In this document: positions 2,861 through 30,786 of the stretch, piece by piece
How the letters are laid out: the number at the start of each line of letters is the position of its first letter
Numbering within the stretch: position 1 is the first letter of the stretch
Assembly (NCBI GenBank): GCA_025356415.1
Contig: JANXTB010000242.1
Coordinates: 1-35,656, forward strand
Direction: 5' to 3'
From: Hyphomicrobiales bacterium
GTDB taxonomy: Bacteria; Pseudomonadota; Alphaproteobacteria; Rhizobiales; Beijerinckiaceae
Length of the DNA stretch: 35,656 nucleotides
Program-made: the position numbers and the translations under genes
The notes under the pieces: model-generated
Databases searched by the model: none
What the model was told of the DNA's origin: nothing
Seen by the model: only the letters and a program-made list of their open reading frames with translations

Positions 2861-3775
2861 ATGTCATCGCGTGCGCTATACGTTGCAGCACTTTTTTTTC
2901 TTCCCACTTTGGCTGAAGCGGCTGATCTGACCGAGAGAACAGGTAAAGCTGCTGGCAATCCCGTCGACTCCGCCGAGTCTCCGGATGTGCCCGGTGGCGA
3001 CATCTTCGGGTTCACCAGCGGCACTGATGTGGGCAAGGTAGGCGACCGTGGCATTGCGCTTGAGAACTCAGGGGCGTACGGCATCAGCAATGGCCGTTGG
3101 CGTGGGCTCTCGCAGAAGCTGGAGTTCTCTGGCACGTTCGTTGAGAACTGGTCCTTTGCTGCCTCGTTGTTCGGGGTCTGGTCGAGCCTCAAGACCAGCA
3201 GCGACTTCCCAGATCGAACTGCTTACAATTTCGATGGTGTCTCTGTCGAAGCCCGCTACCGAGCCATCGAGCGCACAGCCACGAACCCATTCGCGGTGAC
3301 CCTTGCAATCGAGCCACGATGGAGTCGCATTGACGGTATCAGCGGGCTGTATTCTCCGTCGTATGGGGCGGAGTTCAAGGCGCAGGTTGATGCACCTGTT
3401 GCAGATCGCTTATATTGGGCGGCCAATGCCAATTTCGTGATTGGGCGGTCGCGCGATCCCCTTAACTTGACATGGACCAACGGCTCGGAGTCGGTCCTCT
3501 CCACGGCGCTCACGTACGAACTGATGAAGGACACGCTCTTCATCGGTGCGGAGGTTCGATGGCAGCATACGTGGCGCACCGGATTTTTCGGAGGACTTGA
3601 AGGGCAAGCTCTCTACGCTGGGCCGTCTGTTGCATGGAAGCCGGCTGACAACATCATGCTGAATGCGGTCCTTCTTCCGCAGGTCAGGGGTAAGGCTCGT
3701 GGTGTCTCGGGCCCACTCGATCTCGACAATTTTGAGCGCGCTAATTACCGGGTAAAGCTCGCAATCGGATTCTGA
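2861..3775 (+). CDS. Outer-membrane beta-barrel protein, probably zinc-regulated
   Basis: A 304 aa protein. I place the start at 2861 (AAGGAG six bases before ATG) rather than 2843. The signal peptide ends near AEAAD. The mature chain has alternating amphipathic strands rich in Trp, Tyr and Gly and ends in the strand RANYRVKLAIGF, with the terminal Phe typical of barrels inserted by the BAM complex. There is no TonB box or plug, so this is not a ZnuD-type receptor. Being downstream of the zinc-type binding protein suggests a passive channel or outer-membrane partner for metal uptake under zinc limitation; that role is inferred from position. Confidence 0.75.
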   Translation: MSSRALYVAALFFLPTLAEAADLTERTGKAAGNPVDSAESPDVPGGDIFGFTSGTDVGKVGDRGIALENSGAYGISNGRWRGLSQKLEFSGTFVENWSFAASLFGVWSSLKTSSDFPDRTAYNFDGVSVEARYRAIERTATNPFAVTLAIEPRWSRIDGISGLYSPSYGAEFKAQVDAPVADRLYWAANANFVIGRSRDPLNLTWTNGSESVLSTALTYELMKDTLFIGAEVRWQHTWRTGFFGGLEGQALYAGPSVAWKPADNIMLNAVLLPQVRGKARGVSGPLDLDNFERANYRVKLAIGF

Positions 3776-3938
3776 CGAACCATCAGGCCGCGCCTCTTTC
3801 AGCGGCCGCCCAAGCCTGGCCCGAACCACGGGAATTTCCTTCCGGTTACCCAACAAGGATCAAGTCGGAGTTGCCCGGAGCTGCCGCAAAACCGCCGCCT
3901 TGCCCGCCTCTGGAAGGAGCGCGGACAGGGGCGTGAAG

Positions 3939-4160
3939 TCACCACGAGACAATCAGCTCGCAGCCGTGACCAGCTGTCGAGACCGACGTGCGGCTCTCAA
4001 CATTATGAGGTGGGTGATAATATCGGCAGGTCCTAATCTGATGATCGCTATCATACGACGACGCGACGAGCCCCGCCTTTCCAGACAGGTAGAGATAGCC
4101 TCCCAGAGAGGAAACGAGGACAGTCGCCATCACCAGAATGGTCCCCAGAATATGCGCCAC
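3939..4160 (-). CDS. Small membrane-anchored protein (tentative)
   Basis: The frame encodes one hydrophobic span near the N-terminus (HILGTILVMATVLVSSLGGY) followed by a short tail with two cysteines. The most plausible start is GTG at 4160, preceded by GAGAGG; a TTG at 4181 is the alternative. The size and layout match other tiny exported or membrane proteins nearby. I know no family for it. Confidence 0.4.
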   Translation of the reverse strand: MAHILGTILVMATVLVSSLGGYLYLSGKAGLVASSYDSDHQIRTCRYYHPPHNVESRTSVSTAGHGCELIVSW

Positions 4161-4181
4161 CGACGACCTCTCAGTGAACAA

Positions 4182-4200
4182 GGAGGCTAATAAAGCCTCC
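4182..4200. other. Perfect short inverted repeat
   Basis: GGAGGCT, five-base loop AATAA, AGCCTCC. It lies just upstream of the small membrane gene read leftward. There is no T-run, so it may be a regulatory hairpin rather than a terminator. Confidence 0.4.
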
Positions 4201-4652
4201 GGTGAGTGCTGCGGTTAAAACGCTGATGCAATCGATCAAGTGCTTGGTGAGTACGTCGCTGGGCATGGCTTCCAAGTCCTAAATAGCTTCTATGCCGGCG
4301 GTTATAGCGATGCCGTTATTTTGAGCAAAAGAGTCTTTCGTATTTGATGAAATATTAAGGTTTCTAGCGACAGGCACGGCACAGCACCATTGAACGCCCA
4401 ATTCGGCGAGCAGATGGGCCAAGCCCCCGACCCATGCGGTGCTCATGAGCCGGACTTTGAGCGGAGCTGTTTTTGCCTCACTCCGCGCGCCGAGCGCAGC
4501 GATCGTCCCAAGAACAAGGTTGGACAGATGTCAAAAAATGCAGGTGCTTGCAGGACAGAACAGGAACAAGCAGTTTTTTCCAATGGAAGTCCATCACGAA
4601 AACGTGTAGATCATCCATCGCCATGATTAATGCCTAGGCAGGAGGTCCTGTC
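4201..4652. other. Stretch without a recognisable gene
   Basis: Only short frames of poor composition are present, including one of 78 codons at 4390-4626 that I do not believe. The AT-rich part (4280-4370) could hold promoter elements. The right end carries AGGAGG at 4639-4644, the ribosome site of the next gene. Confidence 0.5.
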
Positions 4653-4889
4653 GTGCCCCGATTTTTCCTGCACCATGTCCTGCGCGGTGATCGCATTGAG
4701 GACGAAGACGGTTACGTCTTCGACGACGTCGGCGCTGCGGAATGGGAAGCCGTCTTGGACATCCGATCTGTCGTCGGCCATGCGTTATTGGCAGGCGGCA
4801 CAATCCCAGACGTCCATGTTGAAATCGTCGACGAGAATGGCCGATCCGTATCGATGATCAGGCACGAGGACGCCCTGAAGCCGTCTTAA
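4653..4889 (+). CDS. DUF6894-type small protein
   Basis: A 78 aa protein starting at GTG 4653, with AGGAGG eight bases upstream. MPRFFLHHVLRGDRIEDEDG followed by F-D-D-x-x-A-A is the typical opening of DUF6894: an aromatic strand, then D-x-x-G, then an acidic patch. The C-terminus (VEIVDENGRSV) also matches the family's last strand. The family is abundant in rhizobia and has no established function; the protein is probably cytoplasmic. Confidence 0.85.
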   Translation: MPRFFLHHVLRGDRIEDEDGYVFDDVGAAEWEAVLDIRSVVGHALLAGGTIPDVHVEIVDENGRSVSMIRHEDALKPS

Positions 4890-4907
4890 CGCTGTCTCGG
4901 CTCGGGT

Positions 4908-5105
4908 TTATTGTTCCGACTGCGTCACTCGGCCGGACAACGCGGCATTGGCCGCGATTTCGAGCCGCAGTTGAGTGACCTTGTCGGCCAATTCCAGCCA
5001 GAGTTGCGCGATCATGATGTGGCTGAGGCGCATGGCCTCAGGCACTGTCTCCGCCTCGCGCAGACAGTCCTTCGCCAACGCGCGGTAATCCTCAGCACTT
5101 TTCAC
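4908..5105 (-). CDS. Conserved 65 aa alpha-helical protein, copy 1 of a duplicated cassette
   Basis: Starts at GTG 5105, with AGGAG eight bases upstream; the copy at 13774 has ATG at the equivalent place, which fixes this start. The protein (KSAEDYRALAKDCLREAETV, then SHIMIAQLWLELADKVTQLRLE) is helical and soluble. It belongs to a loose group of small rhizobial proteins with Y-R-x-x-A-x-x-C and W-L-x-L-A patterns. Copy 2 (64 aa) is nearly identical through residue 52. It is divergent from the 35 aa membrane peptide at 5310 across a 204 bp gap; copy 2 has the same arrangement. Function unknown. Confidence 0.75.
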   Translation of the reverse strand: MKSAEDYRALAKDCLREAETVPEAMRLSHIMIAQLWLELADKVTQLRLEIAANAALSGRVTQSEQ

Positions 5106-5309
5106 GATGACGCTCCTGTTGCACAGGGCGTGAATGTCGCAAACTAAATACAGTCGCAATCATTATCAGTGTTTCATAGCATAATACGTAACGACGCCAT
5201 TAATAGAATCAAAGAAATTAAATTTCGAGATATCCTCCAGAGTGTGCCATCCGGTTAGCTTGCTAAAGCGTAAGTCCGTGCGAATGCTTCGATTAAGGAG
5301 AGCGCGCGA

Positions 5310-5417
5310 ATGCGGTTTCGATCCTATTTCCCCCAAGATTTCGGAATCTTTGAAGTCCTGATGTCAGGCGTGATCTTGGTTGCCGCAACGTGTGCGGTCG
5401 TCGTTATGGGCCCGTAG
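5310..5417 (+). CDS. 35 aa membrane peptide, copy 1 of a duplicated cassette
   Basis: ATG at 5310 follows AAGGAG by nine bases. The peptide MRFRSYFPQDFGIFEVLMSG continues into a hydrophobic span (VILVAATCAVVVM) and ends GP-stop. The copy at 13407-13568 (opposite strand) shares MRFRSYFP, the span and MGP, plus about 65 bp of upstream DNA. That conservation is why I accept so short a gene. It is divergent from the 65 aa gene. Probably a small inner-membrane peptide of unknown role. Confidence 0.65.
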   Translation: MRFRSYFPQDFGIFEVLMSGVILVAATCAVVVMGP

Positions 5418-5849
5418 CCAGCGAGGCGACGGCCTACAAACAAATACGAGCGACCAGCGGGACAATTGAAAACGGCCCCGCGATACGCAACACGCGGAGC
5501 CGCCTCTTCGGCGCAGGACAACGCCATAGCTGCACACTAGGACGGGGGTGTTACGAAAAGTGTAGTGGGATGCGCGTCTTCGCGTAACAATTCCCGGGAC
5601 GTCGTCAAGAATGTTGATGATGAACGGTCTCAGATCTTGTCGTCGGCTGTTCCATTACCGGGCCGTTTCGCGATGCGATCTCAGTTTAGGTTCGCGCTCG
5701 GACAGGAGTTGCACCTGTCGCCGTCTTGCGGCGGCGTTCTCTCGCGAGGCGTTCGACGACTATTTAGGCTAGGGCGTCGGCTTTAAGCCCATTCCAGACA
5801 TCGTGCGGCCCTTTAGGTTCGGTGTATTGCGATTATCCATAGGCCCACC
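5418..5849. other. Intergenic stretch with one hairpin
   Basis: A hairpin at 5473-5502 (CGGCCCCGCG pairing with CGCGGAGCCG, one mismatch, ten-base loop) lies downstream of the 35 aa gene and may end its transcript, though no T-run follows. Nothing else in this stretch reads as a gene. Confidence 0.4.
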
Positions 5850-6314
5850 ATGATCAGAAAAGCCGTCGAGGGTGACGAGGCCAGCATCCGCAATTGCGCG
5901 GAGAAAGCATATGACCGCTACGTGGCGCTCATCGGTCGAAAGCCGGCGCCTATGGTCGCGGACTTCCCGTCGCAGATCGCCGCTGGGTACGTTTACGTTG
6001 CTACAGACGAGCAAGGCGCCATTCTCGGTTTCATCGTGTTCCACGAACGGGCTAAGCACATTATGCTGGAGAACGTGGCGGTTTTCCCCCATGCCGCCGG
6101 ACAGGGCGTCGGCAAGGCGCTTATCAGGTTTTGCGAGGATGTGGCTCGCCAACGCGGAGCGGAATCCGTCCACCTCTACACAAATGAGAAAATGGTAGAG
6201 AACCTCCAGATTTACCCGAGACTGGGTTATGTCGAGGTCAATCGGCGCACGGACGACGGCTTCAACCGCGTCTACTTTGAGAAGTCCTTATCCGAAGGAG
6301 GGCGGGGCCCCTGA
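5850..6314 (+). CDS. GNAT-family N-acetyltransferase
   Basis: A 154 aa single-domain GNAT enzyme, predicted to move an acetyl group from acetyl-CoA to an amine. The N-terminal MIRKAVEGDEASI strand-helix, the central strand IMLENVAVFP and the acetyl-CoA-binding loop AAGQGVGKALI (about residues 82-92) are all present. The C-terminal LYTNEKMVENLQIYPRLGY matches the family's motif with the late Tyr. The length is usual. The substrate cannot be told. The ribosome site is weak. A strong hairpin follows at 6331-6357. Nothing nearby suggests a pathway. Confidence 0.88.
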   Translation: MIRKAVEGDEASIRNCAEKAYDRYVALIGRKPAPMVADFPSQIAAGYVYVATDEQGAILGFIVFHERAKHIMLENVAVFPHAAGQGVGKALIRFCEDVARQRGAESVHLYTNEKMVENLQIYPRLGYVEVNRRTDDGFNRVYFEKSLSEGGRGP

Positions 6315-6330
6315 TGCCCAGCCGATTAGA

Positions 6331-6357
6331 AACCGGAGCCTATTTCTTGCTCCGGTT
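6331..6357 (+). terminator. Hairpin after the GNAT gene
   Basis: AACCGGAGC and GCTCCGGTT form a perfect nine-base stem with a nine-base loop, 17 nt after the GNAT stop. Only a loose T-rich stretch follows (CGCTTGTTTG), so it is probably a terminator but not a canonical one. Confidence 0.55.
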
Positions 6358-6550
6358 CGCTTGTTTGCTGAGGATTTTCAGATCGCGAGTCGATCCGTCA
6401 CCCGGCGTACTAAGCGGGTTGCGGTCGACGTGATCCGATGGCCGCGCCGACCGTCGAAATGAACGGCTTGCGCGCACCATGCGGGATCAGTTCGCATCGT
6501 CGTCCTTCTCTGGCGTAGTCCCGGAGTCGCCAAAGCTACCTACTGCGATG

Positions 6551-6769
6551 TCAGTCATCGTCGTCGTCATCATCATCATCCCACATGCATACCGGATCGT
6601 TCGGGCGTTGCGTGCAGTACTCGGTCATAATCGCGATGCACGCGGGATGAGATGGATTTTTTAAGCAAAAGGCTTCCGAGCTTTGAGCGCCGGACTGCGC
6701 GGAACTCTCAATCGCGATCGCCGGAAGCAAGACAATCGACGAAATTAGCACGAGATGTAGGCGGGTCAT
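6551..6769 (-). CDS. Secreted four-Cys peptide with poly-aspartate tail (paralogue 1)
   Basis: A 72 aa protein with GGAGG five bases before ATG 6769. The signal peptide ends near ESSAQ. The mature part has four cysteines in the pattern C-x3-P-x-H-P-A-C, then C-x3-P-N-D-P-x-C, followed by Trp and nine Asp encoded by a GAT/GAC run (6554-6580). Paralogues lie at 25074-25292 (tail DDDEED) and 30611-30724 (cut short). I infer a small periplasmic or secreted protein with two disulfides and an acidic tail that might bind divalent metal. No known family comes to mind. Confidence 0.75.
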   Translation of the reverse strand: MTRLHLVLISSIVLLPAIAIESSAQSGAQSSEAFCLKNPSHPACIAIMTEYCTQRPNDPVCMWDDDDDDDDD

Positions 6770-6994
6770 GTGATCCTCCGCTGGTTCGCGCCGTCGATTG
6801 CGAGACAGTGATCCTGATCCTTTGTTTTTTCAAGAGGCTGCACGAAAAAGCCCCCGCCGCAGCGACGTCCTGGATGGAAAGAAATTCGCCGCTCATGAGC
6901 GAGGGTTCGCCCTCCCCGCGTCATTGAACAGATGGCCTACTGTGCCTTGTGGGGACAAAATGAGATGCTTCGTGCGGCACAGAGGGAGGAAGCT

Positions 6995-7207
6995 ATGAGC
7001 ACTCTTACACTCGTCGGCGTAACCCATGAATTTGAGAAGAAGCGTTCTTTGGCGATTCTGGTGTGGAACGACGATCCCGAGAAGAAGATTTCAGTGCCGA
7101 TTCCATTTGGCTGCCCGTTTGATAGCACGCGGCAGGAGGCCGAGAAGGCTGTCCGCGACCTTGCGAACGAGATGATGACAATCGCGGTGCACGATGGGGA
7201 GCATTGA
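6995..7207 (+). CDS. Conserved 70 aa hypothetical protein
   Basis: Starts at ATG 6995 after GGGAGGAAGCT; the longer frame from 6932 has no ribosome site. The protein MSTLTLVGVTHEFEKKRSLA begins with strands and ends with a helix (EAEKAVRDLANEMMTIA). It is soluble, without cysteines at useful spacing. I do not recognise a named family. A seven-base hairpin follows at 7218-7239. Confidence 0.6.
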   Translation: MSTLTLVGVTHEFEKKRSLAILVWNDDPEKKISVPIPFGCPFDSTRQEAEKAVRDLANEMMTIAVHDGEH

Positions 7208-7217
7208 GAATGCAGGG

Positions 7218-7239
7218 CGCGCCTGCTGAAATAGGCGCG
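7218..7239 (+). terminator. Short GC-rich hairpin
   Basis: CGCGCCT and AGGCGCG pair perfectly around an eight-base loop, 11 nt after the preceding stop. There is no T-run; possible terminator shared with the convergent gene ending at 7273. Confidence 0.35.
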
Positions 7240-7272
7240 ACCTGATCGTTCGTCAGAACCCGATTGCGAGCT

Positions 7273-7551
7273 TCACTCGGTAGTTAGCGCGCTTAAAATT
7301 GTCGAGATCGAGCCGGCCGGCGACACTACGAGCCTTACCGCTGACCTCCGGAAGAAGAAATCATGCCGGTTCGTCAGGACAAACGCGACGGCGTCGATTG
7401 AGGAAAGGAGCTCCGAGGCCGCGACATACAGAGGGCCGTTGATCTGCATGCGGCTCATAGCAATCGCAACGTCGTGGCGGCAAGATTTCAGCGCCGCGAG
7501 CAATTGCTCAGGGTCGATAAGATCGTCCGATAGTTTGGGCCGCCGCGCCAT
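7273..7551 (-). CDS. Conserved 92 aa hypothetical protein
   Basis: The frame starts MARRPKLSDDLIDPEQLLAA and continues with helical segments (SRMQINGPLYVAASELLSSI, then DAVAFVLTN) and FFFRR. The pattern of a G-P-x-Y-x-A-A helix followed by I-D-A-V-A-x-V-L-T is one I associate with small bradyrhizobial proteins without function. It is convergent with the 70 aa gene on its left and divergent from 7637 on its right. Composition fits coding DNA. Confidence 0.6.
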   Translation of the reverse strand: MARRPKLSDDLIDPEQLLAALKSCRHDVAIAMSRMQINGPLYVAASELLSSIDAVAFVLTNRHDFFFRRSAVRLVVSPAGSISTILSALTTE

Positions 7552-7636
7552 TTTTGTTCCGCTTTTGTTCTAAGCTGAAACAACATACGATTGCCGGACA
7601 CGCAAGCCCGCACACCGTTGTCCACAGGAGGTCACC

Positions 7637-7876
7637 ATGGCCGGAGTCACCTACTACGTCGCGCTTCCATTCACTCGGACAGAAGGTGGCGATCTGGTCG
7701 CAGGAGAGCCCAAGGAGTTGCAAAGCTCTGACGCGGCTCGGCGCGAGGCAGGACGCATGGCTTTGGACGGTACCGGAGCAGTTGCGTTCTCACGAACTGG
7801 CGATCCTCGGACGGGAGAGTTCGAGGATGCGAAAGTGATCGCCAGCTATGGAGAGGTTGGCGATATAGCCGTTTGA
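7637..7876 (+). CDS. Conserved 79 aa hypothetical protein
   Basis: A textbook ribosome site (AGGAGGTCACC) precedes ATG 7637. The protein MAGVTYYVALPFTRTEGGDL continues with an A-R-R-E-A helix and a final strand (AKVIASYGEVGD). The fold appears to be a small alpha/beta protein. Similar proteins are frequent in bradyrhizobia, with no known role. No signal peptide. Confidence 0.75.
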   Translation: MAGVTYYVALPFTRTEGGDLVAGEPKELQSSDAARREAGRMALDGTGAVAFSRTGDPRTGEFEDAKVIASYGEVGDIAV

Positions 7877-7955
7877 TGGCACCACTCGCGAGCGTCGGGC
7901 GGGGCAGCGTGCTTGCCTCCCCTGTAGCTTAAAGGGTCGTCGGTTTGGCGTCAGG

Positions 7956-8074
7956 ACCGATCAGCCTCAGGCAAACCCGCCCCACGGACTTGGGGGCATT
8001 CTGACGCAAGCGCAAGGAAAGGCGAAATTGATTTCGCTCGGGCGGTCGACGCCGGCATTGTCACGTCGTTCGCG
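7956..8074 (+). pseudogene. Inverted fragment of the glycosidase-like gene whose start lies at 8061-8420
   Basis: Read on the plus strand, this encodes TDQPQANPPHGLGGILTQAQ and, after one missing base at about 8016, KGEIDFARAVDAGIVTSFA. I recognise this as the segment that normally follows the N-terminal part encoded on the minus strand at 8061-8420 in large secreted GH79/heparanase-like proteins of bradyrhizobia. It is therefore in reverse orientation to its own N-terminus. The join is near the CTGCAG at 8075-8080. The family name is recalled, not searched. Confidence 0.5.
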
Positions 8075-8420
8075 CTGCAGCGAGCTTGCGAAGTCGAGCG
8101 TTCGTGAGATCAATGGGCGGTCGGTATTCGTATAGCGCCGGGTTCGTGCCGGACGGCGTGTCGCCAGCCAAAACGATGGAAGGCGCCGGTTGCCGGAGCG
8201 CATCTGCGAGCTCCGAATTATACGGCCGCCAAAAACGTCCGCCGTTCACCTCCAGCATCTCGACGTTGTAGGACTGATATCGCTCGTCTACCATTTCGAT
8301 GCGCGGCATCGTGGACGGCATCAGTTGTTGCGTCTGCGCTGAGGCCCCGTTCGAACACCCAACGGCCGCGAGCAGCGGTGCAAAAGCCAATGTCACAACG
8401 TGTTTCGCGTTGGCTTTCAT
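8061..8420 (-). pseudogene. N-terminal remnant of a secreted glycosidase-like (GH79-type) protein
   Basis: Starts at ATG 8420 after GAGGAAAGACC, followed by a signal peptide (MKANAKHVVTLAFAPLLAAV, ending near GASAQ). The mature part has MVDERYQSYNVEMLEVNGGR, FWRPY, then YEYRPPIDLTNARLRKLAA before running into foreign sequence (ARTT-stop). In intact relatives the last segment continues into a long catalytic domain. Here it stops at 119 aa because the following DNA is an inverted later segment of the same gene (7956-8074). It could be exported but should lack activity. Confidence 0.6.
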
Positions 8421-8496
8421 GGTCTTTCCTCTTTTGCCGCTCATTTGAATTGGAGCAACAAAAGGGCCCACAAGGAACATCAGGCGAGCAAGACTG

Positions 8497-10126
8497 ATGG
8501 CGAGTGAAGACGCGGTTAAGACCGAAGGACAAGCCGTCGTGACAACATCAACGTGGAGGCCATTCAGCCACGCGGTGTTCAGGCGATTGTGGATTGCGTC
8601 CCTGATCGCCAACATTGGAGGATGGATCTACAATGCCGCAGCCGGATGGATGATGACGAGCCTCGACGCGGGCCCGCTGATGGTTTCGCTCGTCCAGGTC
8701 GCAACCAGCCTGCCTATGTTTTTGTTTGCGCTGCCGGCTGGGGCGCTGGCGGATATCGTCGACAAGCGCCGCTTCGTTCTCGGACTCGAAATCGCCGTAG
8801 CCCTCATCGCAGCACTCTTTGCCGCGCTCGTGACCGCTAACGTTGTCACCCCGTGGATCTTGCTCCTGTTCATGTTTCTGATCGGCACGGTCGAATCTTT
8901 GGAAGCGCCGTCATGGCAATCCATTGTCCCTCAACTCGTCCCGAAGCAGGATCTTGCCCCGGCCATCGCCGCCAACAGCGTGGGCATCAACATCAGTCGC
9001 GCAATCGGACCAGCGCTCGCCGCTCTCATCATTGCAGGATTTGGAATCGCGGCGCCATTCTGGCTCGTCGCGGTGAGCAATTTTGGAGTGATTGGCGTCT
9101 TTTTGTGGTGGAGACCGCCACAGCCGCGCGTATATGGTTTGCCATCCGAAAGGCTGATGAGCGCTGTCCGGACTGGCTTTCGTTACACGCGCAATAATCC
9201 TGTCTTGCGGGCAACATTGGCGCGTTCGGTTGGATTTTTTTTATTCGCCAGCGCCTACTGGGCGCTCCTTCCACTGGTGACACGCAACCAGATCGGCGGC
9301 GGCCCCTAACTATACGGCGTTTTGCTGGGCGCGATCGGCGTGGGGGCCGTGGGTGGGGCTTTCGTCTTGCCGAAAATCAAAGCCATGATCGGTGCAGACA
9401 GATTGGTTTCTCTCGGTGAAATTGGGACCGCGGTCGCCCTCGTGCTGTTCGGATTATCCCGCGAACCCATGATCGCCACGTTTGCTAGCCTCATCGCCGG
9501 ACTCTGTTGGATCGCTGTTGTGGCGAACCTCAACGTGTCCGCGCAGAAGGCCCTGCCGGGCGCGGTCGCGGCTCGCGATGTACGTGACCGTTTTCTTCGG
9601 GACGATGACCTTCGGCAGCGCAATTTGGGGAGACCTTGCCAGCTTCATCGGTTTGGCCTTCACGCATTTCCTTGCGGCGGCGGGGGCGCTCGCCGCGATT
9701 CCGCTGACATCCCGCTGGAAGCTGCACACGGACGTCGAACTCGATTTGACGCCATCCATGCACTGGCCGGCGCCCGTCGTGAGCGACGGGATCGTGACCG
9801 ATGCGGGGCCGATGATGGTGACGGTTCAATACCGGATTGAAGCGGAAAACCGTGAGGCATTCCTCATCGCGCTGGAAAAACTCGGTCACGAACGCAAGCG
9901 CGATGGCGCCTATGCATGGGATATTTTCCAAGATACATCCGATGAAGAGCTGTTCGTTGAAATATTCTTTCTCGAGTCACGGCTCGAGCATCTGCGGCAA
10001 CATTCACGCGTGACCGAGGCAGATCGGACGTTGGAACAAAACGTAGCTCAATACCTGCGACTGCCACCCGCCGTCACGCACTATGTCGCGGCCGAGGTTG
10101 GCAAGAACGCCATAGCATCGGCCTAA
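8497..10126 (+). pseudogene. MFS exporter (MFS_3/EntS-like) with C-terminal ABM-like domain, broken twice
   Basis: The first frame (8497-9309) gives about six membrane helices (FRRLWIASLIANIGGWIYNA, LADIVDKRR loop) and stops at TAA 9307-9309. The same frame continues with LYGVLLGAIGVGAVGGAFVL to about 9565, then the reading moves to another frame (RLAMYVTVFFGTMTFGSAIW) with more helices. A soluble tail of about 110 aa (VTVQYRIEAENREAFLIALE onward) resembles an antibiotic-biosynthesis-monooxygenase-type domain, a known fusion in this MFS group. Rejoined, it would be about 540 aa, the usual size. With a stop and a small deletion near 9570, no full transporter can be made. Confidence 0.85.
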
Positions 10127-10179
10127 AAACCTGACTTACGTGGCAATCCGATCCCGCCTTCGACGTCTTAGACATGGCG

Positions 10180-10719
10180 TCACCGCCATCCAAGCGCCGG
10201 GGCGACATGAGTCAGGATCGCTTCCATAATATGGACATTGTAGCTAACGCCCAATTGGTTGGGCACGGTTAGGAGCAGCGTGTCGGCCTCGGCGATCGCC
10301 TCGTCCTTCTTGAGTTGCTGGACAAGGATGTGCGGTTCGGCGGCATAGCTCCGACCGAAGATGGCCCGCGTTTTTTCGTCGATAAAGCCGACCTGATCGG
10401 CTTCGACGCTGCTGTGTCCAAAGTAGGCGCGATCGCGATCATCAACCAGCGCGAAGATGCTGCGGCTGACCGACACGCGCGGCTCACGCGTATGTCCAGC
10501 TTCTTTCCAGGCGGCGCGAAACGCCCGGATTTGCGCGGCTTGCTGAACGTGGAATGGCTCGCCGGTTTCGTCATCTTTGAGCGTTGAGCTTTGCACGTTC
10601 ATCCCGCGTTTCGCCGCCCAAATTGCTGTCGCATTCGACCCAGCGCCCCACCAAATTCGGTCGCGGAGCCCCTCCGCGATCGGCTCGACACGCAGCAAGC
10701 CCGGGGGATTTGGAAACAT
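10180..10719 (-). pseudogene. C-terminal part of a luciferase-like FMN monooxygenase
   Basis: The frame reads [34 protein letters not shown], the EADTLLLTVPNQLG segment and the C-terminus AILTHVAPALGWR. These are the second half of the bacterial luciferase-like TIM barrel (about 340 aa when complete). The first ~160 residues are absent: upstream of FPNPPG the DNA abruptly becomes a dctA-like gene in opposite orientation (about 10735). The apparent ATG at 10719 is not a true start. It is a truncated gene, not the same subfamily as the one at 34001. Confidence 0.75.
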
Positions 10720-10734
10720 CGGACGCGGGTTGGG

Positions 10735-11163
10735 CCGCGCAAGGTGATCCCGACAGGCTATTCATTCAATCTCGACGGCACATGTCTGTATCTGGCGACG
10801 GCAGCGGTGTTTCTCGCACAAGCGACTAACACGCCGATGAACATCGAGCAGCAGATCGGGCTGCTGCTCATCCTGCTTGCGACCTCAAAAGGCGCCGCCG
10901 GGATCGCCGGCGCGGCGTTCGTGGTTCTCGCGGCGACGCTGTCCGCACATGGGTCAATTCCCGTGCAGAGTGTCGCTCTTGTCCTTGGGATTCACCGCCT
11001 GATGTCGCAGGGCCTGACGCCCACCAACCTCGTCGGCAATGCAGTCGCGACGCTGGTGATTGCTAAATGGGAGAATGCACTCGACGAGACGCGTCTGCGC
11101 GCGGTCCTGGACGGACAGAAAACAACCAGAACGGATGCGCCCTCTGAGTTGGTGCAAGGCTAA
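10735..11163 (+). pseudogene. C-terminal part of a DctA-type C4-dicarboxylate symporter
   Basis: From about 10745 the frame gives [37 protein letters not shown] and [17 protein letters not shown], the conserved serine/glycine hairpin and last helices of the dicarboxylate/amino-acid:cation symporter family (DctA). About 300 N-terminal residues are missing; the DNA to the left belongs to a truncated monooxygenase on the other strand. It ends TAA at 11161-11163. No start or ribosome site is evident, so it is a remnant left by a rearrangement. Confidence 0.8.
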
Positions 11164-11202
11164 CGTCGTGCTGAGGTCATCGAGGCGGCCGGATATCCGG
11201 TT

Positions 11203-11346
11203 TTGGCGCAAAGCGGACGTTGGGTTGTGCGAACGTTATCCGTACCGCTCCAAATTATCGTCCGCGACCGCATCGGTTTCACAACGCCATTTTGCGTGTG
11301 GAAGTTACGGGTACAGAGACAGTGAGACCATCTCTTCCAAACCAAT
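11203..11346 (+). repeat. Dispersed intergenic repeat, copy A
   Basis: About 140 bp beginning GGCGCAAAGCGGACGT and containing GCGACCGCATCGGTTTCA and GTGTGGAAGTTACGGGTACA. It matches 30123-30267 over its length in the same orientation, and 32270-32310 in part. It resembles a non-coding repeat type I know from bradyrhizobial intergenic DNA. Confidence 0.75.
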
Positions 11347-11386
11347 ACCGACTGGTTCACGGAGACCGTGCATTCGTAGTCAGGAC

Positions 11387-12217
11387 TCAGAACGAGAACG
11401 TCGATCCGAGTCTGAACAGGTCCGCTCTGATCTTGCCGGAACTGTCGAAGGTGTTCCGGGCCACCGGGATTTGTACGACCGACACGAGGCCCGACGTCGA
11501 ATGGGAGCCGAAATTGACGTGCAGATATTCGGCCTTCAGCGTCCAGTTGCGCGCGACGCTCCATTCCAAACCGCCGCCGAACGCAGCGCCGATCGCCGGC
11601 GCGCTTGATCTTGAGCCGCCAATGGCGCCGCCGTTGAACTGCCAGTCGTCGGTGTAGGCGTTGGAGACCGTCTGTTTGGTCAGGGCGAGACCGCCGGTCG
11701 CGTAGACCAGCAAGGACGGCGAAACCAGATACCCGGCGCGCGCCCGCAGCGTCGCCAGCCCGTCGATCTGCGCCGACGAACCGATGGTCGCGATGACGGG
11801 CGCTGGCCCCGGGTTCGTGAGGCCGAGATTGAGGGACGACCGGCTCCCGCCATGGGTCGCCGACTGATGCAGCGCGCTGGCGTCCGCCTCAAGGCCGTAG
11901 ACAAATGTTCCGAGGCGCCAGTTGAAGCCGACGAGGACGCCAGCGGTGAACGTCGTCCGCGAGGTCGAACCGCCCGCCGCTGCGCTGAGCGCTGCGGCGT
12001 TTTCTGGATAGTGGGTAGGATCGCAGAGAAACCCGTTCGCGGCGCAGCCCACGACGCTTTGCGTCGCGCCCCGGTCTGAGGCTGCTCCGGCGATCGCGCC
12101 GACATAGGCGCCGCTCCAGGCATCTTCCGTCAACACAGGCGTCCGACGAGGTTCCTGCGCCAGGCCGGACATTGAGCCAGAAAGAATGAGCGCCGCAGCG
12201 AGACAAAATCTGTGCAT
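11387..12217 (-). CDS. Omp25/Omp31-type outer-membrane beta-barrel protein
   Basis: I choose ATG 12217 because it opens a signal peptide (MHRFCLAAALILSGSMSGLA, cleaved near AQE). The 276 aa protein shows WSGAYVGAIAGAA at the mature N-terminus, GVLVGFNWRLGTFVYGLEAD, an R-A-R-A-G-Y-L strand, FGGGLEWSVARNWTLKAEYL, and ends FRLGSTFSF. This is the eight-stranded Omp25/Omp31 (COG3637) family, in which W-x-G-x-Y-x-G-x-x-x-G opens the barrel. The final Phe fits BAM-dependent insertion. Such proteins stabilise the outer membrane of rhizobia and brucellae. Frame and length are intact. Confidence 0.88.
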   Translation of the reverse strand: MHRFCLAAALILSGSMSGLAQEPRRTPVLTEDAWSGAYVGAIAGAASDRGATQSVVGCAANGFLCDPTHYPENAAALSAAAGGSTSRTTFTAGVLVGFNWRLGTFVYGLEADASALHQSATHGGSRSSLNLGLTNPGPAPVIATIGSSAQIDGLATLRARAGYLVSPSLLVYATGGLALTKQTVSNAYTDDWQFNGGAIGGSRSSAPAIGAAFGGGLEWSVARNWTLKAEYLHVNFGSHSTSGLVSVVQIPVARNTFDSSGKIRADLFRLGSTFSF

Positions 12218-12734
12218 GGAGACAACCCAGTCGTCGGCTCGATCCGAATCGGTAAGAGCACCACGACCTGAGCTATACAGTTTCGGCGCGAGAAAGTCCG
12301 ATGTGCGAAGAGTTTGGAGGTAGGTCCGGCAGGATTCGGGCCTTTGCCCCCGCCCCGGCTTGGAATCGAAAGCCACGCCGCGTTGTGTATCGTCGGGCTT
12401 TTTGCGTTTTCCGACCGACCAATTGCCCTCAACTTTTCACTAGCGTAGCCGCCTAGTGTACGGCCAGCTCAAAAGGGCAGTCCTCTTGCTCCTTGGGCAG
12501 AAGCTCAGTCCGCTCCTCTATGCGGAGAGGGACGACGGTTAATTGGTTGGCCGAGAACTCTCGCTTCGGACGCCAGGGCGCGGGTTTTCTCGTTCTGACT
12601 TCGCTTCTCTTGCATCGCGAAAACGTTACCGCGGCGCAACAGAAGGCCAGCTGAAACGGGCAACTGTCGGCAGGGCGCTAAGTTGATGTCCGTCCTCAAG
12701 TAATTAGGGACATAAGGCTAAGCAGGAGTGAGCC
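12218..12734. other. Intergenic stretch between two divergent genes
   Basis: It carries the upstream regions of the Omp25-like gene and the 77 aa secreted protein. A 36-codon frame on the minus strand (12505-12615, MQEKRSQNEKTRALASEARV) has coding-like composition but no ribosome site. Nothing else is clear. Confidence 0.4.
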
Positions 12735-12968
12735 ATGATAACACGAGCCATTCTCTTTGCCGGCGCTGCGGTCGTTTTGCTGCCGACCGCAAGTTTTGCT
12801 CAGTGGCGCAATCAAAATCTTGAGCCGACATGTTCCGCAAGCGGCTCCGGAATGGACCCCCGCTGCGTCGGGGACACTTCCCCGGGCACCCTCAGCGACC
12901 TGACAACTGAACGTCAAGAACAAGCGATACGAATGGGTCGATACCGCTCGGGTTACTACCGTTATTAA
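12735..12968 (+). CDS. Small secreted protein, 77 aa
   Basis: AGGAG precedes ATG 12735 by seven bases. The signal peptide MITRAILFAGAAVVLLPTAS is cleaved near FAQ. The mature part is hydrophilic, with two cysteines (EPTCSASGSGMDPRCVG), and ends in a Tyr/Arg-rich tail (GRYRSGYYRY). The two cysteines could form a disulfide in the periplasm. I know no named family for it. Confidence 0.7.
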   Translation: MITRAILFAGAAVVLLPTASFAQWRNQNLEPTCSASGSGMDPRCVGDTSPGTLSDLTTERQEQAIRMGRYRSGYYRY

Positions 12969-13117
12969 AGGCGGCGATCCGTACGCCAGACTAGTACCGG
13001 CACCGCGTGTTACGTACCGCGGGGCCGTTTTCAGTTGCCTCGATTGTCGGGCTGATCCGCGTCAGTGGTGATAGTGATCAGGCGGGGGACGAAGTCGGCC
13101 ATGGGTGGAGAGCTACC

Positions 13118-13399
13118 ATGCTCAAAGCCGCGCAATATTGGTTCGCTTACAACGTCGCAACCGGCTGTAACGCGATCGATTTTGCTCTCAAAGCGCGGGC
13201 TTTCCTGAAATCGATCGGCGTCGATCCGGAAATCCAAGTGACAGATGAAGGCGGATTTCACCGGATCCGCGTTACCGTTCCCGAAAGTCTTGGAACGATA
13301 GCCAGCTTCAGGTTGATCCCACTAAATCGGCATCTCGCCAGTCAGGGCTCAAGCAACCAGCGTCAGCTTGGCAAAGCCGTGTCCGTGCTCGGACCATAA
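13118..13399 (+). CDS. Conserved 93 aa hypothetical protein
   Basis: The start ATG 13118 follows GGAGAGCTACC; a longer frame from 13007 lacks a ribosome site. The protein begins MLKAAQYWFAYNVATGCNAI, then a helix (FALKARAFLKSIGVDPEIQV) and a strand pair (FHRIRVTVPESLG). The middle resembles a small ACT-like or ferredoxin-like alpha/beta unit, but that is only a pattern guess. It is convergent with the 53 aa gene at 13407. Confidence 0.5.
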   Translation: MLKAAQYWFAYNVATGCNAIDFALKARAFLKSIGVDPEIQVTDEGGFHRIRVTVPESLGTIASFRLIPLNRHLASQGSSNQRQLGKAVSVLGP

Positions 13400-13406
13400 T
13401 TCGGCC

Positions 13407-13568
13407 TCATCGCACGACCGGATACACGGGCCGAGCCGAAGGATCACGGGATCGGAGACCTCGCCTAGGGCCCATGATGAAGACTGAGAAAGCCGCGGCC
13501 ACCACCATCAGGCCCAACATCAGAAATTCAAAGACCCCGTAAGAGGGGAAATAAGACCGAAACCGCAT
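13407..13568 (-). CDS. 53 aa membrane peptide, copy 2 of a duplicated cassette
   Basis: ATG 13568 follows AAGGAGAGCGCGCGA, the same leader as copy 1 at 5310. The first 34 residues (MRFRSYFPSYGVFEFLMLGL, a hydrophobic span, then IMGP) match copy 1, which stops right after MGP. Here the codons run on for 19 more residues (RRGLRSRDPSARPVYPVVR). The DNA GGCCCTAGG versus GGCCCGTAG shows that a one-base loss hides the original TAG, so the tail is probably an accident. It is divergent from the 64 aa partner across 205 bp. Confidence 0.6.
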   Translation of the reverse strand: MRFRSYFPSYGVFEFLMLGLMVVAAAFSVFIMGPRRGLRSRDPSARPVYPVVR

Positions 13569-13773
13569 TCGCGCGCTCTCCTTTGGTCGAAGCATCGCAC
13601 GAAGGTACGGGCTAGCAAGCCGACCGGATCGCCATTTTCTCGTGGCCGATCATGGGTTTAGTTAGTTACGGGTCGTTAAGGCCGCCGCGATAAACCCGTC
13701 TGAAAAGAGAGATGGGACTTGAGCTTGTGTACGGTATCGAACATTACCTCCCGGTGAAAACGGGAGCGTGATC

Positions 13774-13968
13774 ATGAAAAGTCCCGAGGAATACCGCGCG
13801 TTGGCAAAAGAATGTCTGCGGGAAGCGGAGACAGTGCCGGAAGGCATGCGCCTCAGCCACATCCTCATCGCGCAACTCTGGTTGGAACTGGCCGACAAAG
13901 TCACGCAACTGCGACTCGAAATCGAGGACAAAGCCGCGCGGTCCGGTGGGTCGGCACTGTCAAACTAA
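13774..13968 (+). CDS. Conserved 64 aa alpha-helical protein, copy 2 of a duplicated cassette
   Basis: ATG 13774; the upstream sequence CGGGAGCGTGATC matches that of copy 1. The protein MKSPEEYRALAKECLREAET continues through LSHILIAQLWLELADKVTQL, differing from copy 1 by only a few conservative changes up to residue 52; the C-termini differ. Retention of both open frames and of the paired divergent gene suggests selection. A strong terminator lies about 110 bp downstream. Confidence 0.75.
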   Translation: MKSPEEYRALAKECLREAETVPEGMRLSHILIAQLWLELADKVTQLRLEIEDKAARSGGSALSN

Positions 13969-14079
13969 TGTCTTGTGCCAAGCGGCCCCGTCTCGCTCGC
14001 CAGTGCTGGCAACCTTTTGCAAACCTTTGCCGTTGCAAGCTCAAGTGTTCCAGCTCACCCCCCCGGGCTCGGAACAGAA

Positions 14080-21461: not shown

Positions 21462-22096
21462 CAGGCGATCCCGATCAGCTTGTGTGTCTGGATGCTGAGC
21501 CGCCAACGCGGGTGGTCCAGGCAATAGGCGACCGCCGCATCCGTATTCGCCTGCCGCTCTGGGCCATCCATCGGCTGCAGCCAGAAATGCCTGAAATCTA
21601 GCCCGGCGAAGACTTGCGGATCGTGTTCGCGCTGCGGGAACACCAGCTTCAACTCGTGGCCTTTTGTGACGTTCAGGGGCGCATTGGCCTTGGGACTCAC
21701 GCAGACCCAGTCGATCCCGTCGACGAGAGCAACGGTGCCGTTGGTCTCGACCGCGATTTCAAAGCCGAGCCGATGCACTGCCTCGATCAGCGCGGGATCA
21801 ATCTGGAGCAGCGGCTCGCCGCCGGTGAAGACGACGAATCGATTGGCGGACGAGGAGTGTTCCCAACAATCGGCAACAGCCTGCGCGAGCGCGTCTGCGG
21901 ACACGAATTTCCCGCCGCCCGTCCCGTCGGTTCCGACGAAATCCGTATCGCAGAAGGTGCAGACAGCCGACGCGCGGTCCACTTCGCGCCCCGACCAGAG
22001 ATTGCACCCGCTGAAGCGACAGAACACGGCAGGCCGGCCCGCATGGTAGCCTTCGCCCTGCAGCGTCCTGAACAGCTCCTTTACCGAATAGGTCAT
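21461..22096 (-). CDS. queE: 7-carboxy-7-deazaguanine synthase (radical SAM)
   Basis: I start at ATG 22096 (MTYSVKELFRTLQGEGYHAG); a longer frame to 22171 adds no homology. The 211 aa enzyme has the extended QueE cluster motif: CNLWSGREVDRASAVC followed by TFC, that is C-x14-C-x2-C, binding the 4Fe-4S cluster. FTGGEPLLQ binds S-adenosylmethionine, and VETNGT and SPKANAPL follow. It converts 6-carboxytetrahydropterin to 7-carboxy-7-deazaguanine, the next step after QueD. No queC or queF is in the window. Confidence 0.92.
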   Translation of the reverse strand: MTYSVKELFRTLQGEGYHAGRPAVFCRFSGCNLWSGREVDRASAVCTFCDTDFVGTDGTGGGKFVSADALAQAVADCWEHSSSANRFVVFTGGEPLLQIDPALIEAVHRLGFEIAVETNGTVALVDGIDWVCVSPKANAPLNVTKGHELKLVFPQREHDPQVFAGLDFRHFWLQPMDGPERQANTDAAVAYCLDHPRWRLSIQTHKLIGIA

Positions 22097-22654
22097 GGTT
22101 CTCACCTTGGTGGGATGCAGCTCTCGCTCGCCGACGAGGATTTCACCAGCCCGCGCCCTTCCTCGGGCCACACAAAAATCCGCCAGCCCGGAAAAGCCGA
22201 AAAGCCCCCGCTGTCTTCGCGACAGTTACCCCTACGATGGATGTCAACGTAGCGCTCGCCGCCAGTGTTACCCCTTACTCCCGCGGATAGTAGCGCTACC
22301 TCTTATCGAACCGACGGCTGATGTCCACTGCTTGCGTAGGGTCCAAACGTATTTTTGACGCCAAAGAATCCCTTATCGGAACCTGTCAACTTGGCACTTA
22401 AGGATCGAGGATCATCTCGGCTCCTTCGTCATGGTGACGAGGCCAAAACTATTAAATCACAAACTCAAATCCGGGACACAGGTGGTGACGGGGAACAGCG
22501 TTATCACCCAGATTAGCGGCACATTGACGCTGTAACCTTCGAGACCATCAGCAACGCGGGCTATATGCCTTGAATTAGCCGCGTCCGGCGTGTTTAGAGC
22601 CTCAGATACAAATAAATCATCTCGAAGCTTCCCTCACCTGGAGGTTGCCCCTGC
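22097..22654. other. Upstream region of queE and gene-free stretch
   Basis: A perfect small hairpin (CTGTC/GACAG, five-base loop) lies at 22211-22225, about 115-130 nt before queE. I looked for a preQ1-type leader by eye and see no convincing match. The rest, to 22654, holds only short frames. Confidence 0.4.
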
Positions 22655-22963
22655 ATGTCCGAGTTTGTTCGACCTACCGATATCCGCGTGTTTATGCATC
22701 AGCAAAAGCAAGATCCTGTCTCTGTGGCGGATTTGCCTTTCGACACGACCGATCAATCGCCCAAGCAGCCCCTAAAGAAATCAGGCGTCGAAATCATGGC
22801 CCTGCGTGAGCATCACTGCCGTTGGCCGCTCGTACGCGCTGCGGACGAGGCTCAGAAATATTGCGGAATGGGTCGCTTCGCTAATAGCTCTTATTGCGCC
22901 ACTCATGCGAAAATCAGCTACGTCCCGTCGCAGAGCAGACAGCGCATGGCAAGGGCTAGTTAG
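22655..22963 (+). CDS. GcrA-like C-terminal domain protein
   Basis: A 102 aa protein; GGAGG lies ten bases before ATG 22655. Residues 50-90 read LREHHCRWPLVRAADEAQKY, CGMGRFANSSYCATHAKISY. This C-R-W-P, C-G, Y-C-x-x-H pattern is the C-terminal signature of GcrA-type alphaproteobacterial regulators and of many short orphan proteins. The N-terminal half lacks the GcrA DNA-binding helix-turn-helix, so this is not a full cell-cycle regulator. The Cys/His set may bind a metal. Function unknown. Confidence 0.7.
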   Translation: MSEFVRPTDIRVFMHQQKQDPVSVADLPFDTTDQSPKQPLKKSGVEIMALREHHCRWPLVRAADEAQKYCGMGRFANSSYCATHAKISYVPSQSRQRMARAS

Positions 22964-23461
22964 CCAAACTGCGAAAATGTGCCCCGACGTCATGGCTAAC
23001 TCGCGCTCTCCTTTTTGTGGATCACCACTACCTCAGCCTCGTTAGCGTGATCTGGCTACTGTTCGCCTTGGGTTTCGCAGAGGCTGCGCAGGTATTGATT
23101 CAGCAGCAGCGTGAATCCCCGAAGCAAATGTAGCTTGCAGCGCACGGCGACTTTCGAGTTTTTCAACACAATCGGACGCAAAGCGGACGCCGGGAGATGA
23201 GAACGACAGCCGCGATATATTTCCGAAGCCCCGCGTTTCACTTGTAGGCGTCAATGCTCGCGCATATCGAAGATAGTCGATGCGTGGGACGGTTCGAAGA
23301 GCGCGGCGCAGATCGTTCGTCCGCCGCCTAGTGCCGCGGTCATCAAGAGACGATCTCGCCGTGGGTTTGCAAACATTGAGCGGCCACGTTTCAGGCGGCC
23401 GCGCTAGTGGCTGTTGCGCTTAACTAGCCACCACCCACCGGCAATCTCGGGCGCAGTTAGA
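22964..23461. other. Gene-free stretch with a faint repeat remnant
   Basis: 23175-23204 (ACGCAAAGCGGACGCC, then GAGAAC) resembles the start of the dispersed repeat at 11205 and 30125. The rest shows no reading I can support. Confidence 0.35.
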
Positions 23462-24961: not shown

Positions 24962-25073
24962 CATATTGAACGTCAATGTCTCACTTATTCGTCAGCGGAT
25001 GAGGCACGCGGATTGCGCGAACAAGGAAAAAAGATCAGCGTCTATCGCCCATCGTCACTTATTGGGTGATGCT

Positions 25074-25292
25074 ATGAGACGCTTTCTTCTTGTGCTTGTT
25101 ACGCCGCTCATTGCGCTGCCTTGGACGATGACGAAGAGCTCGGCGCAATCCAACCGGCTAGAGGAGGAGAGTTTGTGCTCGCAACAGCCGACCCATCCGG
25201 CCTGCCTCGCAATCTTGTTGCAGCACTGCGCTCATAATCCTAATGACCCGGCTTGCATCTCTGACGACGACGAGGAGGACAGCGCGCTGTAG
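25074..25292 (+). CDS. Secreted four-Cys peptide with acidic tail (paralogue 2)
   Basis: The ATG is at 25074; the leader GGTGATGCT also precedes paralogue 3. The signal peptide MRRFLLVLVTPLIALPWTMT ends near SSAQ. The mature part has C-x3-P-T-H-P-A-C-L-A-I and C-A-x2-P-N-D-P-A-C, then ISDDDEEDSAL. It shares the four Cys, the H-P-A-C and P-N-D-P patterns and the acidic end with the protein at 6551-6769. Probably exported with two disulfides. The ribosome site is poor. Confidence 0.7.
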   Translation: MRRFLLVLVTPLIALPWTMTKSSAQSNRLEEESLCSQQPTHPACLAILLQHCAHNPNDPACISDDDEEDSAL

Positions 25293-30122: not shown

Positions 30123-30267
30123 AGGGCGCAAAGTGGACGTCGGGATGTGCGAACTTTAACCGTACTGCTCCAAATTCTCGTCAGCGACCGCATCGGTTTC
30201 AGAGCGGCAGTTTGCGTGTGGAAGTTACGGGTACAGAGACAGTCAGACCAGCTCGTTTAAATCAATA
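30123..30267 (+). repeat. Dispersed intergenic repeat, copy B
   Basis: Matches 11203-11346 in the same orientation, for example GCGACCGCATCGGTTTCA and GTGTGGAAGTTACGGGTACA. Differences are scattered base changes. Confidence 0.75.
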
Positions 30268-30362: not shown

Positions 30363-30610
30363 CTTCCGATATGCTTGCATCTCCAAGCCTCGGAAATGTC
30401 GGCACCTTCCCCGTCCGTCTTCCGGCAGAGAACAATCAAGCAAAATGGCGCCAGGTGGCGCGGAGGAGCTCCAATCTACGAGATTCTCATGCCTCGCTAA
30501 CGGCTGGGTCCGACCCATTTCTGACTCTGGGAACGTCTGCTGCGGGGCAGTGTGGAAAGTTGCTGACGGCCACTTGCCGCTGCCCCCAGCCCACTCAATA
30601 AGGTGATGCC

Positions 30611-30724
30611 ATGAGACGCTTTCTTCTCGTGCTCTTGACGCCGCTTGTTGCGCTGCCTTTGACGATGACAACGGGCTCGGCGCAGTCCTACAGCCTCGAC
30701 GCGGAAGCAGTGTGCTCAGAATAG
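30611..30724 (+). pseudogene. Truncated paralogue 3 of the secreted four-Cys peptide
   Basis: The first 37 codons (MRRFLLVLLTPLVALPLTMT, then TGSAQ and AVCSE) follow paralogue 2 closely, including the DNA just before the ATG. A TAG at 30722 stands where paralogue 2 has a Gln codon (CAG), and the Pro after it is still present. Downstream homology then fades. Only the signal peptide and one Cys remain. Confidence 0.7.
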
Positions 30725-30786
30725 CCGCGCCAGCTTCGCAGCGCATGAGGCGACCGTAGCTCGGTCAAGAAGTGCGATTTTGGCGT

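Follow-up and report, generated by a model that had tools for sequence, protein, structure and literature searches.

An inverted duplication of two divergent tiny genes in a Hyphomicrobiales bacterium, best read as fragments of a reshuffled micro-gene cluster

Type II toxin-antitoxin pairs are usually encoded in a co-directional operon, and a divergently encoded protein partner lies outside the type I toxin scheme. Here we describe a 35,656-nucleotide stretch of DNA from a Hyphomicrobiales bacterium (contig JANXTB010000242.1 of assembly GCA_025356415.1, hereafter the window), in which a gene for a soluble protein of 65 amino acids (aa) and a divergent gene for a 35-aa membrane peptide are present in two inverted copies. 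The divergent orientation of the two genes departs from the co-directional toxin-antitoxin layout, and the 35-aa gene, with its divergent protein partner, is not arranged as in the type I scheme. Described systems resemble single parts of the locus. Small single-pass bacterial membrane proteins, which include type I toxins and regulators (TimP among them), are like the 35-aa peptide in size, in having one hydrophobic helix and in their basic N-terminus, but no sequence relative was found. Both 65-aa proteins agree, at its invariant positions (Y, A, W and L), with an unnamed small helical family that occurs in other genomes of this bacterial family and has the pattern YRxxAxxC ... MAxxWxxLA (loci L017-L039). 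A neighbouring gene matches DUF6894 (PF21834), a term contained in no paper of the literature searched.

The first copy consists of the 65-aa gene on the minus strand (4908..5105, with a GTG start), a divergent gap of 204 nucleotides (nt) at 5106..5309, and the 35-aa gene on the plus strand (5310..5417), the leader of which carries a Shine-Dalgarno-like AAGGAG (5295..5309, plus strand). In the second copy the membrane peptide is encoded on the minus strand (13407..13568), followed by a gap of 205 nt (13569..13773) and by the soluble helical protein, here of 64 aa, on the plus strand (13774..13968). A blastn search aligns 4933-5413 with 13946-13468 in a single inverted match of 489 columns (73.6% identity, E = 1.2e-69) that spans both genes and the gap, and the E value places the duplication far beyond chance. 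The inverted duplication of the two tiny genes is real, and both genes look real. Reading of the open reading frames (ORFs) together with blastn bears out the coordinates, the strands and the reversed order given in a preliminary description of this DNA, which was also right that the gap has kept its length and that the leader, AAGGAGAGCGCGCGA, is exactly the same in the two copies. When as many as two mismatches are allowed, the window contains four sites for this leader sequence, where 0.38 would be expected. The further claim that both proteins are kept holds in that both homologs are present in the second copy, but the membrane ORF there is 53 rather than 35 aa long. Homology stops at 13467; owing to a 1-nt difference in the alignment the stop codon is lost there, and the frame continues into an unrelated tail.

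Purifying selection since the copies split is well supported for the 65-aa protein and moderately supported for the 35-aa protein. Between the copies, the 65-aa gene has 25 nucleotide differences in 58 codons, located 6, 4 and 15 times at the first, second and third codon positions, with a ratio of nonsynonymous to synonymous divergence (dN/dS) of 0.19. The 35-aa gene has 27 differences in 34 codons (9, 4 and 14; dN/dS 0.27) and a single in-frame indel of a whole codon, whereas the other two forward frames give dN/dS values of 0.63 and 2.57. We also placed the same substitutions at random and scored the amino-acid changes and their BLOSUM conservatism. The 65-aa protein shows fewer amino-acid changes than expected (P = 0.00135) and more conservative ones (P = 0.00005), and the changes in the 35-aa peptide are likewise conservative (P = 0.0002). 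The coding case for the 35-aa gene thus rests mostly on the conservative nature of its changes. The preliminary description would have given up its reading if the 35-aa frame lacked codon-level conservation; such conservation is found.

Global alignment of the two gaps reveals about 35 conserved nt at the side of the 65-aa gene and about 65 conserved nt at the side of the 35-aa gene. The centre is the least conserved part, at 44-56% identity per 25-nt window, so that the middle has diverged much as had been described, although in this comparison of two sequences the central segments still lie slightly above shuffles (P = 0.02-0.06). Conserved ends around a weak middle suggest that the gap holds two private leaders rather than a shared operator, as far as two sequences can indicate. 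In both copies the ribosome (Shine-Dalgarno) site of the 65-aa gene is located inside a predicted hairpin (5085-5150 and 13725-13793), and, by our own reading of the folds, one change preserves pairing on both sides. Leader hairpins over a ribosome site are also a feature of ROSE thermometers (cf. PMC3669281), but the folds of the 65-aa leader have modest z scores (−0.73 and −2.13) and no Rfam match even at relaxed thresholds. The leader of the 35-aa gene folds no better than shuffled sequences (z scores of 0.65 and 0.47). Nothing was found at the gaps by Rfam at gathering or relaxed thresholds; one relaxed score, for F6, fell far under its cutoff at a palindrome next to the copies.

The duplication is not confined to the pair. 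A block beyond the 35-aa gene (5451-5502) matches 12998-13049 in inverted orientation, and a search of the genome itself, a draft assembly of 429 contigs, with 4600-5600 found the two window copies and one other contig, C274. Three blocks are shared between the window and C274 (3934-4369, 88% identity, direct; 4466-5057, 79.8%, inverted; 5468-5554, 88.5%, direct), and on C274 they have a different order and orientation. The first of these, block A, contains two minus-strand ORFs, p31 (4171..4266), a hydrophobic ORF of 31 aa with 27 of 31 residues identical on C274 (dN/dS 0.12), and p73 (3939..4160), which starts 10 nt after p31 and encodes 73 aa with one hydrophobic segment (dN/dS 0.31 against its C274 copy). 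Convergent with the 65-aa gene is a 78-aa DUF6894 protein on the plus strand (4653..4889; PF21834, E = 5.6e-11; dN/dS 0.13 against C274). It is a neighbor in the window and not one of the two paired genes, but the second block shared with C274 includes it along with the last 49 codons of the 65-aa gene, the 5′ part of which is cut off there. The 35-aa gene was not found with this third copy of the 65-aa gene on C274. Synonymous distances among the three 65-aa copies are nearly equal (pS of 0.34, 0.37 and 0.36 over 58, 49 and 41 codons). Block D (5468..5554, plus strand; second copy 12998..13049, minus strand) carries the palindrome and is found at three places in the genome. Allowing up to three mismatches, the 34-nt consensus of the palindrome has three sites in the genome, by the first copy, by the second (12998-13031) and on C274, each adjoining a copy, whereas the reversed control has no site. 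In the second copy, block D is separated from the membrane gene by a 93-aa ORF (13118..13399, plus strand), which is without a counterpart in the first copy and has no Pfam match.

C274 (L058/L059) also contains a direct duplication of 1,085 bp at 86% identity (7316-8400 and 21983-23067), and each of the two cluster contigs has an ORF that encodes an ATP-dependent DNA ligase domain (942-1676 in the window, 4186-4863 in L059).

Matches to p73 at E ≤ 0.01 were obtained in 10 of 397 family genomes, the own genome included, and eight of these are in the genus. A strong relative is in a genus-mate (G008, E = 4.8e-28), with weaker ones in six more genus-mates, and on this ground we largely rejected the possibility that the contig was misbinned. 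Despite these relatives of p73, close relatives of the 65-aa and 35-aa genes are absent from the genus. In nine p73 loci of 2.5-3.2 kb each, a search at E = 0.05 detected no other protein of the five. As 65-aa relatives elsewhere also lack the 35-aa gene (see below), the cluster seems to be made up of genes with separate histories.

The 35-aa peptide has a predicted helix at residues 9-33 (mean predicted local distance difference test score, pLDDT, 79.8) and a Kyte-Doolittle hydropathy of 2.46 over 19 residues, and would cross the inner membrane once, its basic N-terminus lying on the inner side. Within its own genome the gene is limited to the two window copies. Its profile matches 12 of 397 family genomes at E = 0.1, namely its own and 11 others with E values between 0.018 and 0.093. 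Judged as a group, these 11 matches were taken as chance, since they are partial and many lie inside long frames. The Pfam result for the peptide looks like chance (E = 0.14), and scanning a named genome collection with its alignment gave 37 pattern matches, none of which was confirmed.

For the 65-aa protein, the AlphaFold2 model (P0001 with P0002) is a hairpin of two helices, residues 4-18 and 23-63, with mean pLDDT 92.1, and the protein is probably a soluble helical hairpin. It appears to be a divergent member of the unnamed helical small-protein family of related bacteria, as a profile match extends across the YR-A--C and MA--W--LA segments. It differs from that family in being one residue shorter in the turn, and the second copy is only 21-36% identical to the distant members in our wider profile (A7). 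It was detected in two of 298 family genomes, its own and one with a weak match (G127, E = 8.3e-4). Of 297 order genomes, three were found at E = 0.01 by a profile of the own copies, namely the own genome and two others that matched weakly (E = 0.003 and 0.007). When the G127 protein was joined with the three own copies, the profile matched 14 of 248 family genomes, the own and G127 included. The A7 profile found two of 61 genomes, the own and a weak match in a genus-mate (G013) at a locus with no 35-aa relative, so the helical family is sparsely represented within the genus. At E = 1 neither of the two 65-aa copies in the window is matched by a Pfam or NCBIfam model, and single other YRxxAxxC members have weak Pfam scores (best E = 0.015). 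In PHROGs the two 65-aa copies reach just E = 0.1 and 0.21 and the membrane peptides match nothing. Searches against the PDB were uninformative: the fold search gave 86 hits with E values of at most 10, all of them above 0.001, and by sequence the A7 profile had 11 matches up to E = 1, the best being a designed helical repeat (0.0027). An alignment scan of the named genome collection with the 65-aa protein gave 92 pattern matches, none confirmed. No relative was confirmed in viral contigs scanned with the 35-aa, 65-aa and p73 proteins, and none was found among plasmid proteins with P0001, the protein of locus L006 and p73.

The explanation that we favour starts from a block some 1.6 kb long, made up of the palindrome and five tiny genes (p31 and p73, which point the same way, followed by the DUF6894, 65-aa and 35-aa genes), which would have been copied piecewise and rearranged in the genome. 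The fullest copy (3934-5554) may represent the ancestral form; the copy at 12998-13968 would then be inverted and partial, and that on C274 shuffled and truncated, the shared blocks themselves being directly visible in the sequence. Each gene would have a conserved leader of its own for translation, and the two genes most likely do separate, condition-dependent, dispensable jobs. Our preferred view is that the pair consists of fragments of a duplicated, reshuffled micro-gene cluster amid broken genes, and we consider it moderately probable that this reading as a whole, with both genes selected and doing separate jobs, is correct. Several points weigh against it. Separate jobs do not predict that both genes would stay together at near-equal spacing in both window copies. 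The history of the block is drawn from three copies in one draft genome. The number of amino-acid changes in the 35-aa peptide is by itself marginal (P = 0.064), and its lack of stops is uninformative, being expected in 58% of random placements. Finally, scans for consensus promoters found none at either gap, so expression of the pair remains a prediction.

The strongest alternative is that the membrane peptide and its soluble partner, as regulator or as toxin and antidote, form a functional two-protein module with a shared divergent regulatory region and are kept as a unit, much as the preliminary description proposed when it argued for joint action from one promoter region. Conservation of both frames as coding, the near-constant gap and the identical 35-aa leader all fit such a module. 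However, order and spacing accompany a single block duplication, the gap is only weakly conserved at its centre, the peptide of the second copy has gained an unrelated tail, and there is no PADLOC match at E = 0.1. The 65-aa sequence also occurs on C274 without the 35-aa gene. Moreover, the two genes do not co-occur across independent genomes: among the 51 genus genomes, the own one is the single genome with the 65-aa protein, with the 35-aa peptide and with the pair. Whether the genes are usually found apart, on which the preliminary description had made its view depend, can be answered from one side. All 22 remote loci of the 65-aa family lack a 35-aa relative by tblastn (best E = 0.71), and a scan upstream of 21 of them for divergent hydrophobic ORFs gave a single unrelated ORF of 28 aa; on the 35-aa side no convincing relative is found in the other genomes searched. 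A direct partnership of the two proteins is thus a tentative idea, and the full module with its shared regulation seems, if anything, slightly more doubtful. It is quite unlikely that the five genes together make up a novel, modular system of small proteins, in which soluble proteins (DUF6894 and 65-aa) control or neutralise hydrophobic membrane peptides (31, 73 and 35 aa) and the members are duplicated and recombined as interchangeable modules.

Equally improbable is that a small mobile element carries the pair as cargo and that the copies arose by transposition. Inverted copies on two contigs in reshuffled order, amid repeat-rich surroundings, would agree with mobility, but neither terminal inverted repeats nor a transposase, as expected of a transposon or a miniature inverted-repeat transposable element, was found. 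At the settings used there is no inverted repeat of at least 12 nt in 4880-5560 or 12980-14000, and none of the 22 ORFs scanned among those between or beside the copies has a transposase domain. In 3900-5600 there are two inverted pairs of 13-14 nt at 85-86% identity, which we took as chance without a control. The ends of the copies are unlike between sites, and the lack of viral-contig relatives (35-aa, 65-aa and p73) and of plasmid relatives (65-aa and p73) also argues against mobility. Least probable of all is that the 35-aa frame is incidental and the conserved stretch a leader RNA or small RNA, to which the strong conservation of its 5′ part including synonymous sites (39 nt at 95%) and the marginal count of amino-acid changes would point, but the codon-position bias, the whole-codon indel, the lower dN/dS than in the other frames, the conservative changes, the unremarkable leader folding and the absence of an Rfam match at the gaps speak against it.

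Several broken genes lie between the two copies: an MFS_3 transporter in two pieces, a weak luciferase-like fragment (E = 0.0017, under the cutoff) and the C-terminal part of an SDF symporter (8497-10126, 10180-10719 and 10591-11163). A second inverted duplication (3671-3809 and 7219-7357; 139 nt, 88% identity) overlaps the same 8 kb. A dispersed repeat of about 140 nt at 87% identity has two long copies (11205-11347 and 30125-30267) as well as shorter ones near 23177 and 32264. The long copies have one open forward frame in common, and the repeat presumably resembles one that is common in bradyrhizobia-like genomes. Elsewhere in the window, tiny gene starts at 25065-25190 and 30602-30727 (79% DNA identity) encode a signal-peptide-like MRRFLLVL..TPL.ALP.TMT..SAQS.

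Lineage-restricted genes of 31-78 codons often fall under annotation limits, and the copies within a single draft genome make such genes checkable. The present analysis also assigns a helical family of small proteins, together with DUF6894, to a setting that has been copied repeatedly. For now the locus is a duplicated block of accessory micro-genes; if the cluster proves functional, it would provide a testable set of five genes.

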